Source of the DNA: Chloroflexota bacterium
Lineage (GTDB): Bacteria; Chloroflexota; Ktedonobacteria; Ktedonobacterales; Ktedonobacteraceae
DNA: 53,057 nt
NCBI GenBank assembly: GCA_902810755.1
Contig: CADDYT010000030.1
Coordinates: 1 to 53,057, forward strand
Reading direction: 5' to 3'
The notes under the pieces were generated by a model. It was not told where the DNA came from. It saw nothing but the letters and a program-made list of their open reading frames with translations, and did not search any database. Numbering within the stretch: position 1 is the first letter of the stretch; each line of letters starts with the position of its first letter. This document shows positions 23,225 to 27,089 of this stretch, one piece after another. The position numbers were made by a program, and so were the translations under genes.

Positions 23225-23253
23225 ATTATATGCTATCCCGACCTGTCTGCCTA
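23225..23253 (-). promoter_or_regulatory. Internal promoter for rpoN
   Basis: Minus-strand -35 TAGGCA (23248-23253), 17-base spacer, -10 TATAAT (23225-23230). The -35 overlaps the rnc stop codon. Transcription would start near 23218, giving rpoN its own short leader besides read-through from selD-rnc. Confidence 0.6.
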
Positions 23254-23931
23254 GACCCAGCCGCGATTGACGAGGGCATTGTGGGCCGCTTCTTGCTCTG
23301 CCGCCTGCTTATTGCGTCCGTGTCCTGTTCCGGCAACCTGCTCGCCCAGCATGACCTCGACCGTAAACTCGCGATTATGCGAGGGGCCTTCCTGGCTCAC
23401 AAGTCGGTACGAGGGCGTGATGCCGTCCTGAGCCTGCGCCAGTTCCTGAAACAGCGACTTGTTATCTTTGAAGAGCCGTTTTGTGATGATCTTCTGTGCC
23501 AGAGGCTCCAGGCGTTTGAGCAGGAACTGGCGCGTTACCTCGATACCCTGATCCAGGTAGATCGCCGCCAGCAGGGCCTCGAAGGCGGAAGCCAGGACAC
23601 GCTGGCTGCCGCCCGTATAATGCTCTCCCCTGCCCATGCGCAGGAACCGGCCCAGCTCAATCTCGCGGGCAAAGGTCGCCAGCGTATCCGTTTTCACCAG
23701 AATGGCGCGTACATCGGTCAGTTCGCCCTCGCTCAACTGTGGATAGGTGCGATAAAGAAAGTCGGCACTGATGAAGGCAAGAATGGAATCGCCCAGGAAC
23801 TCTAACCGCTCGTTTGATTCCTGGCCCGCGCCCGGCGTCTCGTAGATGTACGAGCGATGGGTGAGGGCCAGTTGTACCAGTGCTGGATTCTGGAAATGGA
23901 TACCCAGAATATCTTCCAGCGTTTCAGCCAT
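23251..23931 (-). CDS. rnc: Ribonuclease III
   Basis: RNase III cleaves double-stranded RNA in rRNA and mRNA processing. The 226-residue protein has the signature NERLEFLGDSIL (catalytic E44 and D48) and a C-terminal double-stranded RNA-binding domain (about 155-224, ending AAEQEAAHNAL). The second metal-binding pair normally reads D..E; here it is S115 and E118 in LASAFEALL, so the Asp equivalent to E. coli D114 is Ser. The codon (TCC) was checked in the sequence. The ATG overlaps the selD stop by one base (TAATG), so translation is coupled. Confidence 0.94.
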   Translation of the reverse strand: MAETLEDILGIHFQNPALVQLALTHRSYIYETPGAGQESNERLEFLGDSILAFISADFLYRTYPQLSEGELTDVRAILVKTDTLATFAREIELGRFLRMGRGEHYTGGSQRVLASAFEALLAAIYLDQGIEVTRQFLLKRLEPLAQKIITKRLFKDNKSLFQELAQAQDGITPSYRLVSQEGPSHNREFTVEVMLGEQVAGTGHGRNKQAAEQEAAHNALVNRGWV

Positions 23932-24989
23932 TATACTACCTCCAGCACTACCTGAGATTCGTTCTGTACCCGCTCCGTCACCTTACCGACGCGCCAGAAC
24001 GGCACTTCCGGCGCGAGTATGGCAAGCTCTGGCCACAGTGCGGGGTCGATGGCGGCAAAGAGGCCGCCGGAGGTCTGTGGATCCCAGAGGAGCTGCCGCT
24101 CAACTTCGCTCAGCCGCTCGCTGAAACGCACATGAGGCGAGAGATAGGTTTCGTTGCGATGGGCGCCGCCAGTGATACAGCCCTCTTCCGCGTAGCGCAG
24201 CGCGCCGGGGAGCAGAGGAAGCGCGGCAAAATCGAAGCGCATACTGGTCAGGCTCTGTGCGGCCATCTCCCAGGCGTGGCCCAGCAGCCCGAAGCCGGTG
24301 ATGTCGGTAACGGCATGCACGCCTTTGCCCGATCGCACCAGCGCCTGGCTCGCCTGCTTATTCAGGCGCGTCATCGAGGCCACCGCCGCCTCCAGATCGC
24401 TCGCCAGCACCTTCTCCTGCTTGTGCGCTGTCGTAATCAGGCCGGTGCCGAGGGGCTTACCGAGAATGAGCAGATCGCCGGGCTGAGCGCCGCCTTTGGT
24501 CAGGATATGGTCGGGATGCACCATTCCGGTCACGGCCAGCCCGTATTTGGGTTCTTTATCGGTCACGGTATGCCCTCCGGCGATGATACCGCCCGCCTGT
24601 GCCACGATATCGGCGCCGCCGCGCAGGATGTCGCTGAGCAGGCTCGTCTCCAGATTGTCCGGCCACGCCACCAGATTAATGGCCATAAGCACCTGACCGC
24701 CCATCGCATAGATATCGCTCAGGGCGTTAGCGGCGGCAATCGCACCGAAGGTGTAGGCGTCATCGACCACCGGCGGGAAGAAGTCAGCGGTACTGATAAT
24801 CGCCTGTTGCTCGTTCACGCGATAGACGGCGGCATCATCGGCGGCGTGCAGCCCGACCAGCAATTCAGGTGGCACGGTATGGAATGTGAGTGGACGCAGG
24901 ACCTGCGCCAGGGTCCCTGGACCCATTTTCGACGCTCAACCGGCGCAACTTGCCAGCGAGGTCAGGCGTATTCTTCTGCCTGTCGACAT
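23931..24989 (-). CDS. selD: Selenophosphate synthase SelD, selenoprotein (in-frame UGA)
   Basis: SelD makes selenophosphate from selenide and ATP, the selenium donor for selenocysteine and selenouridine. A conventional caller would start at ATG 24926 (331 aa), but that lacks the N-terminal catalytic loop. Extending the frame upstream gives MSTGRRIRLTSLASCAG, then TGA (24936-24938), then ASKMGPGTLAQVL. The TGA falls exactly at the catalytic Cys/Sec of SelD (E. coli C17), followed by the essential Lys (K21 here). Read as Sec18, the product is 352 residues and complete, with the ATP-binding motifs DDAAVY, GGHTV and the C-terminal TSGGLF. A SECIS-like hairpin lies just after the TGA, and a promoter at 25034-25063. 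First gene of selD-rnc-rpoN. Confidence 0.92.
24908..24938 (-). promoter_or_regulatory. Candidate bacterial SECIS hairpin after the selD UGA
   Basis: The UGA is at 24936-24938. Fifteen bases later, CCAG (24917-24920) and CTGG (24908-24911) can pair around the loop GGACC, whose first base is G. This fits the distance and loop-G pattern of bacterial SECIS elements bound by SelB. An alternative, overlapping GGGTC/GACCC pairing exists. Short stem, so only a candidate. Confidence 0.5.
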
Positions 24990-25033
24990 ATGGAATGTTC
25001 CCCGTTTACAAACTGTTTTCTTCTTATGGAAGC

Positions 25034-25063
25034 ATTGTAGCGCGTTTGCCCGTGAGTCGTCAA
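25034..25063 (-). promoter_or_regulatory. Sigma-70 promoter of the selD-rnc-rpoN operon
   Basis: Minus-strand -35 TTGACG (25058-25063), 18-base spacer, -10 TACAAT (25034-25039). Transcription near 25027 gives a leader of about 38 bases to the upstream selD ATG at 24989, which supports that longer start. Confidence 0.65.
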
Positions 25064-25109: not shown

Positions 25110-25543
25110 ATGTGAGGAAGACAGGCAATCGCGGGCTGCACGGCGTGCCGTAGCAGTTCGAGGAAAGTCCGAACTCCACAGAGCAGGATGCTGGATAACG
25201 TCCAGTCAGGGCGACCTGAAGGAAAGTGCCACAGAAACATACCGCCTGGCGCCTGCATCCATCAGAGCGCCGGGTAAGGGTGAAATGGTGAGGTAAGAGC
25301 TCACCGGCAGCCGGGTGACTGGCTGGCCGGGTAAACCCCATCTGGAGCAAGACCAGACAGGAGGGGTAGGAGCAGATGTCGTGTTGCTCTGCAATGCGGC
25401 CTCTCTCCTTGCAGGCTGCTCGTCTGTCAACCTCCGGGTTGGTCGCTAGAGGCAGCAGGTAACTGCTGTCCCAGATAGATGATTGCCCCCCTCTCGGTGA
25501 GAGCCGCCAGGGGAACAGAATTCGGCTTATGGCTTCCTCACAT
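25110..25543 (+). ncRNA. rnpB: RNase P RNA (M1 RNA, type A)
   Basis: The catalytic RNA of RNase P, which matures tRNA 5' ends. Conserved blocks are clear: GAGGAAAGTCC at 25160-25170, ACAGAAACATACCGCC near 25230, GGTAAGGGTGAAATGGTG near 25273, AGATAGATGATTGCC near 25475 and ACAGAATTCGGCTTA at 25515-25529. The ends form an 11-bp P1 helix, ATGTGAGGAAG (25110-25120) with CTTCCTCACAT (25533-25543). Length is about 434 nt. Transcribed divergently from selD; no strong upstream promoter is obvious (TATGCT at 25088-25093 is a possible -10). Confidence 0.96.
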
Positions 25544-25563
25544 CCACTCCCACGCTGTTTTAC

Positions 25564-25658: not shown

Positions 25659-27089
25659 TCACACAGCCCCGGACAATCCCTTGATCAGCACCTTTTCCAT
25701 CACCGCAGCAGCAATCGAGCCATTTGCATTGCTGGTGACGGAGAGAAGCAATATCCCTTCCTGCGTCCCTGCCGGGAAGGTGGACCGGTAGTTCACGGCG
25801 TTTGAGAAGGAGGTTGGACCCATCCCGATAGCTCCAATGGCCTGCGCATGGCCGAGAGGTTGATACAGATGATCGAGGACGACCAGCTTGCCGATTACCC
25901 CCTCAAATGCCGAACCCGTTCCGCTCACCTGCACCGGGCTGCTGATTTGAGAAAACGGAGCAGGACTGGTGATCGAGAGTCCTGGAGCAGTGACAGAGAT
26001 CACTTCCCAGATGCCGCCGTTGCTGTTGCCTTCCAGCCGCGAGAGCGTGACGTTGATGCTTCCCCCTTCCAGTCCGGCGTTTCTGACTCGCACGACCGCA
26101 CTGACATCATGCGCCCCTCCGCCGCTCAGCAGCGTGGAAGAAGAATTGGAAGACCAGTTGAGCAAGTTCACTGCCAGCGCGGTGGCCACCTGGGTCGCGC
26201 TGAGTTTCCACGGTTGATGTCCCTGATTGACCTGAATTTGATCGGCTTCGGCCTGGTAGCGCGTCATATCGGGGAACATGCCGGGAAAGACCGTTTGCAC
26301 CAGTGTCCCTGCACGCTGCGACCATTTGAACTCGCGGAAAAGGTCTGCCTGCATAGCGGAGACCGATTTGCCTCTGTTGAGCGAGGAGAGTTCGTCGGCC
26401 TGGGCAGTCATCACGGTATTGTAGTGGCTGATTTTTGCCTTCCCCTGTACGAGTCCCATCACCTGAAAGACCCTGGTTGGCTGAGCATCCGTGATGTTGC
26501 TGAAGACAAAGACATCCAGTGTACGACCGTCGTCACCGCGACGAACGGTCACCAGGGCCTGAAGCGAGGGAGTACCCATGATGTTGGCGCAACTGACCGA
26601 CTCGACGTGATGGGGGCCACCATAGGCGTAGGGGTTGATGATCGGCTCCCAGTAGGCGGGGGTCGCTACCTGAGCAGGGCAGGCTCGCGGGCCAAGCGCG
26701 ATGCCCGGTGTAGGTGTGGGTGCAGGCAGGGTACTCGACGTCGGGCCGGGTCCGGGGTGAGCAGGTGTACTGTGGTGATGCAAGACGGAAAAGATTCCGG
26801 CAAGCGCGCCAACCAGCAGCAAGGCGAACAGGGCCGCAGCCAGCGTGTTCAAGCGAGACCAGCGCCGGGCGCTAGTGGTGAAAGGCAAGGTTCCAGACGG
26901 CAGTTCTTGCTTATGCTGAGATGCGACCAGGTGGAATGGTTGGTTTTGCTGAGCATGGAGGAGTTGAGCAGGAATGCGAGGGGTAGTATAGAGCGCATCC
27001 AGGTCGTTGACGAGTTCCCGTAAAGCGGGATCGTCCTGGCCCTCCAGCAGATCAGGATAACGAGCATCCAGTGGCGATTTATTGTTCAT
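25659..27089 (-). CDS. Membrane anti-sigma-like protein with Gmad2-like domain
   Basis: A 476-residue single-pass membrane protein. The N-terminal 80 residues are cytoplasmic, one hydrophobic segment lies at about 80-102, then a Pro/Thr-rich linker and a large extracellular region. The latter ends in a domain resembling Gmad2, an Ig-like domain of spore germination proteins (LSITSPAPFSQISSPVQVSG and FEGVIGKL, about 370-470). Its start overlaps the end of the upstream ECF sigma gene by 11 bases, the usual layout of a sigma/anti-sigma pair, so I infer that the cytoplasmic part restrains that sigma factor. No zinc-finger (ZAS) motif is visible. Confidence 0.72.
   Translation of the reverse strand: MNNKSPLDARYPDLLEGQDDPALRELVNDLDALYTTPRIPAQLLHAQQNQPFHLVASQHKQELPSGTLPFTTSARRWSRLNTLAAALFALLLVGALAGIFSVLHHHSTPAHPGPGPTSSTLPAPTPTPGIALGPRACPAQVATPAYWEPIINPYAYGGPHHVESVSCANIMGTPSLQALVTVRRGDDGRTLDVFVFSNITDAQPTRVFQVMGLVQGKAKISHYNTVMTAQADELSSLNRGKSVSAMQADLFREFKWSQRAGTLVQTVFPGMFPDMTRYQAEADQIQVNQGHQPWKLSATQVATALAVNLLNWSSNSSSTLLSGGGAHDVSAVVRVRNAGLEGGSINVTLSRLEGNSNGGIWEVISVTAPGLSITSPAPFSQISSPVQVSGTGSAFEGVIGKLVVLDHLYQPLGHAQAIGAIGMGPTSFSNAVNYRSTFPAGTQEGILLLSVTSNANGSIAAAVMEKVLIKGLSGAV

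Follow-up and report, generated by a model that had tools for sequence, protein, structure and literature searches.

Does a TGA near the start of a selD reading frame in a Ktedonobacterales bacterium end translation, or is it read as selenocysteine (Sec)? The frame lies on the minus strand of the window, by which we mean the whole stretch of 53,057 nucleotides analysed. Read from ATG 24989, it runs through 16 further codons ending in S-C-A-G, meets the in-frame TGA as codon 18, resumes as ASKMGPG and closes at a TAA (23931-23933), giving 352 residues if the TGA is counted as Sec. An earlier note made from the raw sequence had described precisely this layout. By comparison, the version in the list of open reading frames has 331 residues and begins at ATG 24926. 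Our analysis indicates that the gene almost certainly specifies a Sec-containing selenophosphate synthetase in which UGA codon 18 is read as Sec.

The catalytic site and the start of translation

We aligned the full-length frame to chain 3u0o, which we take to be the solved structure of E. coli SelD. U18 pairs with Cys17 and K21 with Lys20, two residues presumably essential in the E. coli enzyme. The TGA therefore falls at the catalytic Cys/Sec position with a lysine three residues later, as the earlier note had proposed. The protein belongs to the SelD equivalog family: with its 21 N-terminal residues it scored 386.4 bits against TIGR00476 (cut-off 125) compared to 363.6 bits without them, and their addition moved the start of the profile match from position 16 to position 1. 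The promoter that the earlier note described upstream of the longer start is present as a promoter-like site, TTGACG-18 nt-TACAAT, for which shuffled sequences contained a mean of 0.2 such sites. Inspection by eye also identified a possible ribosome-binding site ahead of ATG 24989 (Table 1), and none stood out before ATG 24926. Finally, codons 1-17 of the TGA genes had 2775 silent versus 1117 replacement differences, summed over row pairs; for the ten codons that precede the ATG the figures were 178 silent versus 3155 replacement differences. The predominance of silent change in codons 1-17, unlike in the ten codons that precede them, argues that the sequence ahead of the TGA is translated in the selD frame.

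The nearest SelD loci come from Ktedonobacterales, where a SelD match was present in 40 of 47 genomes. Twenty-six of these carry a single in-frame TGA and 14 carry none, having Cys at the site. Thermosporothrix hazakensis ATCC BAA-1881 (L002) also has the TGA. With the window included, the site codon is TGA in 27, TGC in 11 and TGT in 3 of the 41 genes of the order, 14 of which are thus Cys homologs. Of the best 80 of 274 SelD loci, 50 carry TGA at this position and the other 30 Cys. Chance does not account for a codon shared by so many SelD genes, both within the order (26 of 40) and among these best 80 loci (50). A rapidly built tree of 51 rows, in which the Sec/Cys column had been masked, placed the 14 Cys rows as one group nested among the Sec rows (support 85, not starred) and required at minimum one change of state. 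One loss of Sec in favour of Cys would be the simplest reading, in a tree whose ten outgroup rows were all picked for carrying TGA, so that the direction of change rests partly on that choice. PMC1794560 reports that SelD has undergone Sec-to-Cys conversion, and it reports no case of the reverse.

The earlier note had also claimed that the usual start call hides the Sec site. We searched a protein database with the short form of SelD, under length limits that admitted full-length proteins. In 119 of the 120 relatives listed the annotated start is the residue matching M22, four codons past the Sec codon, and in the remaining one it is later still; none of the 120 (lengths 314-340; 8000 scored) has the N-terminal loop. 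At the level of DNA, all 40 relatives of the order that we read have it. The prospect that all homologs start after the site, named in the note as grounds for abandoning its claim, is therefore real in annotation (119 of 120 listed) but not in DNA (loop in 40 of 40). A start assigned by a gene finder is no evidence that translation begins there, and the family is a clean example of a selenoprotein lost by annotation, its members filed without their catalytic residue.

Table 1 Features of the selD locus (positions in the window)
Feature	Position	Strand	Remarks
selD, full frame with TGA as Sec, 352 aa	23931..24989	-	Frame, TIGR00476, alignment to 3u0o
TGA codon 18, Sec at the catalytic Cys/Sec position	24936..24938	-	Frame, alignment, relatives
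Lys21 codon	24927..24929	-	Aligned with Lys20 of chain 3u0o
ATG chosen as start by gene finders	24924..24926	-	Product without Sec and Lys
Best SECIS candidate, GGCGCAG-GUC-CUGCGUC	24893..24909	-	Loop with G first, 26 nt after UGA; pairing, covariation
Second hairpin, GGGUC-CAGG-GACCC	24911..24924	-	11 nt after UGA; conserved mainly within Ktedonobacterales
Stem of the earlier note, CCAGG-GAC-CCUGG	24908..24920	-	15 nt after UGA; overlaps both hairpins, less conserved
GGGGAA, purine-rich, possible ribosome-binding site	24998..25003	-	8 nt before ATG 24989; by eye
Promoter-like site, TTGACG-18-TACAAT	25034..25063	-	Upstream of ATG 24989; 10/12 matches
rnc (RNase III)	23251..23931	-	ATG overlaps selD stop (TAATG); sequence, profile search
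RNase P RNA gene (class A)	25113..25544	+	Divergent from selD; RNA gene search

Silent sites and hairpins downstream of codon 18

We compared fourfold-degenerate sites downstream of the codon in the 27 TGA genes and the 14 Cys genes of the order. Identity over codons +6 to +10 was 0.83 in the TGA genes versus 0.47 in the Cys genes, and over codons +11 to +15 it was 0.54 versus 0.36, in comparisons that share ancestry and whose counts are therefore not independent. Later parts of the gene gave 0.38-0.45 in the TGA genes (from +16) and 0.34-0.47 in the Cys genes. In the TGA group the five most conserved of 331 five-codon windows begin at +6 to +10. None of these positions figures among the ten highest-ranking of 332 windows for the Cys group, whose best window (0.89, 116 comparisons) lies at +259. 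Relatedness is not the cause of the constraint, because it holds in subsets of the TGA rows, both the nine nearest (0.69 at +6 to +15 versus 0.33 over +21 to +330) and the eleven basal ones (0.70 versus 0.51 in the rest of the gene), and not in the 14 Cys rows (0.41 versus 0.40). The order thus provides a natural experiment, in which a constraint present in Sec genes and gone in Cys genes marks the SECIS region without any experiment.

RNAalifold predicted two hairpins (-13.88 kcal/mol) from the 27 TGA rows and no structure from the 14 Cys rows. Taken together, the hairpins at 24911-24924 and 24893-24909 had 92.0% of cells paired in the TGA genes of the order compared to 60.7% in the Cys genes. 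Outside the order, hairpin 24893-24909 had 256 of 315 cells paired in 45 TGA loci and 71 of 161 in 23 Cys loci (L063, also Cys, was left out), the latter a weak control because Cys proteins from beyond the order are more divergent in sequence. For the hairpin tests we pooled TGA genes from several phyla (72 rows, 69 distinct). Over these rows, hairpin 24893-24909 had 85.7% of 483 cells paired, compared to 30.6-56.7% when slid, and two-sided changes in all seven pairs, which none of 500 shuffles reached. Hairpin 24911-24924 had 66.1% of cells paired, compared to 63.5% when slid by one; it has two-sided changes within the order. RNAalifold returned no structure for all 72 TGA rows together. Sliding by -1 yielded 20 two-sided cells versus 19 unslid for hairpin 24893-24909 (72 rows), with only 30.6% of cells paired, and 16 versus 12 for the two-hairpin structure within the order, with only 39.1% paired. 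Since slid structures give as many two-sided cells or more, covariation carries less of the argument than pairing and silent sites do. Folding of a single sequence gave a weak signal (window's 48 nt after the UGA: z -1.22, with 24 of 200 shuffles folding as well), and it is comparison among genes that reveals a SECIS-type structure downstream of the UGA.

The earlier note had placed a SECIS-like stem 15 nt after the TGA. A stem with a loop beginning with G is indeed present there (24920-24908), but the other hairpins are better conserved: it had 70.8% of cells paired within the order, compared to 92.0% for the two hairpins together, and 63 of 500 shuffles reached its covariation score. We therefore rejected it as the SECIS. 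Bacterial SECIS elements are described in PMC1088965 as stem-loops in the coding sequence after the UGA, with a small apical loop that contains G. Hairpin 24893-24909, with its loop GUC, has these properties, and as judged from sequence the SECIS appears better placed there than at 24908-24920.

Selenocysteine decoding in the order and the neighbours of selD

There is no tRNA gene in the window, and we infer selA, selB and selC of this organism from those of its relatives. Among 18 genomes reached through the loci, SelB was above cut-off in 16 and SelA in 16, and ARAGORN confirmed tRNA-Sec(UCA) in 14 of 16 loci from an Rfam search. Two candidates, L107 and L108, proved to be tRNA-Leu, and their genomes (G016 and G014) were left uncounted. 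SelA, SelB and tRNA-Sec(UCA) were present together in 10 of the 11 Ktedonobacterales genomes checked (G001-G010), four with Sec-SelD and six with Cys-SelD; the eleventh, G014, has SelA and SelB, its tRNA-Sec match being a tRNA-Leu. Across the order, 41 of 47 genomes have a SelA match, among them every one of the 14 Cys-SelD genomes. No SelA match was found in three of the 40 SelD genomes (G026, G033, G053), all with Sec-SelD.

The gene that keeps Sec decoding in the order is probably a formate dehydrogenase with TGA. In 33 of 47 genomes the gene for the alpha subunit of formate dehydrogenase-N/O (TIGR01553) contains an in-frame TGA (loci L222-L251 were fetched), and the site motif ARI-U-H could be read in 28 of 30 loci, L246 and L250 being fragments that begin past the site. 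The TGA form occurs in 14 of 14 Cys-SelD genomes and 17 of 26 Sec-SelD genomes; two Sec-SelD genomes (G001, G053) have only a fragment past the site, and seven have no TIGR01553 match. Because all 14 Cys-SelD genomes have this gene, the Sec system there is not kept for SelD. Accordingly, the proposal that SelD is the sole selenoprotein of the order, prompted by the scarcity of TGA in FdhF-type subunits and of selenouridine synthase, was rejected for most of it. The earlier note's view that SelD needs its own product applies to the Sec form. The order can dispense with this arrangement, as 14 of its 40 SelD genomes have the Cys form.

Other families with in-frame TGA were rare. FdhF-type alpha subunits (TIGR01591) have it in 1 of 41 among the matches listed, and G031, a genome with no TIGR01553 match, carries an in-frame TGA in an FdhF-type subunit. 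The UGSC family has TGA in two of 47 genomes, both near relatives of the window (L255 and L256; G054 and G052) and both reading U-G-S-C. AhpC-TSA matches have an in-frame TGA in three of 15 genomes, at the active site of a peroxiredoxin-like protein as U-P-N-C in G035 and G019, two more of the seven genomes with no TIGR01553 match, and off the site in G046. The Rdx/SelW family has TGA in one of 47 genomes, in a SelW-like protein of G028 with C-H-T-U (L252, L253 and L257 are the loci of the peroxiredoxin-like and SelW-like proteins). In the remaining four of those seven genomes (G020, G022, G023, G029) no second selenoprotein was found among the formate dehydrogenase, UGSC and SelW families. 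PMC1794560 describes several species with selenouridine synthase in which SelD is the only selenoprotein. Among 18 genomes that enzyme was above cut-off in a Paenibacillus alone, and the 11 Ktedonobacterales of this set gave no match above it.

Two neighbours flank selD (Table 1). The gene for RNase P RNA lies no more than about 2 kb upstream of selD in five of 11 relatives' loci (L002, L003, L004, L006 and L158). Downstream, rnc follows selD in 25 of 25 Sec rows tested (L184 and L185 lay outside this check) versus 3 of 14 Cys rows, a loss that falls inside one Cys group and may be one or two events. In 35 Sec loci outside the order (of the 45 TGA loci), rnc was absent downstream of selD within the flanks examined. 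A coupling of rnc translation to passage of the Sec codon is conceivable, yet we consider it improbable; if it were true, RNase III levels would track the supply of selenium, and most of the Cys-SelD lineage would have escaped from this link. We hold a second reading, that SelD is the sole selenoprotein of G020, G022, G023 and G029, to be similarly doubtful; if true, the Sec system there would be a loop serving itself. Among open-licence papers, we found none linking selD with rnc or RNase III with selenium.

Rival readings and comparison with known systems

If the TGA were a true stop, SelD would be made as a shorter enzyme from ATG 24926. The annotation of 119 of the 120 listed database relatives from the equivalent codon speaks for this reading, but that product would be missing the lysine as well as the counterpart of Cys17. 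The 17 codons ahead of the TGA change in the manner of coding sequence, each of the 14 Cys homologs in the order is open through the site with Cys there, and no ribosome-binding site is evident by eye before the internal ATG. We consider such a truncated enzyme very unlikely. Still less credible is the idea that a Cys gene or pseudogene acquired the TGA by mutation or through a sequencing error: TGA is one base away from TGC and TGT, but the same codon, as the only in-frame stop of each gene, recurs in 26 genomes of the order, and T. hazakensis has it too, so that the relatives already refute the idea. An equally negligible probability attaches to UGA being read as an ordinary amino acid throughout the organism, in favour of which we found nothing. 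Homologous positions hold Cys or TGA only, the relatives have tRNA-Sec(UCA), and a predicted gene at 25659-27089 (Pfam match below cut-off) ends in TGA, a thin argument given that the other eight frames examined end in TAA or TAG. Collectively, the position of the codon, the silent-site constraint and hairpin conservation restricted to TGA genes, and the Sec machinery of the relatives support the earlier proposal that the UGA is read as Sec.

A different alternative accepts Sec-SelD and assigns SelB binding to hairpin 24911-24924 or to stem 24908-24920 instead of hairpin 24893-24909. The SECIS of E. coli fdhF lies 11 nt after its UGA, the spacing of hairpin 24911-24924, which also shows two-sided changes in the order, and the loop of the stem begins with G. 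However, across the 72 genes hairpin 24911-24924 is hardly better paired than when slid and falls well below hairpin 24893-24909, and the stem is the less conserved within the order, its covariation score being matched by shuffles. We regard an element other than hairpin 24893-24909 as possible but rather unlikely. In the mechanism that we favour, translation of SelD would start at ATG 24989, SelB would bring Sec-tRNA(UCA) to UGA codon 18 with the aid of a hairpin that lies a short way past the codon within the coding sequence, and Sec would occupy the place of Cys17 in E. coli SelD. Here we infer both Sec insertion and the identity of the hairpin that SelB binds.

The Sec-containing SelD is very probably genuine and was correctly recognised from raw sequence. 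Sec-SelD is a long-known family seen in many bacteria, and what is added here is the likely location of the SECIS, along with the evolutionary setting. FdhA and SelD are named as the most widespread selenoproteins in PMC1794560. In the passages of PMC5330540 examined, the sole mention of Ktedonobacter racemifer is in a legend to an AhpC alignment, and a search of the open-licence literature found no papers joining "Ktedonobacteria" with "selenoprotein".

The protein resembles bacterial Sec-SelD in being a SelD equivalog with a catalytic UGA, a downstream hairpin, Cys homologs and relatives with Sec machinery, and we see no difference of principle. With the Cys-SelD of chain 3u0o it shares, by sequence, the family and the active-site layout, but Sec would replace Cys and the region downstream is under silent-site and hairpin constraint. 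Like other bacterial SECIS elements, the candidate is a coding-sequence stem-loop after the UGA whose small apical loop contains G. It differs in that two adjacent hairpins are kept in the order and in that the widely conserved one lies farther from the UGA than the element of fdhF.
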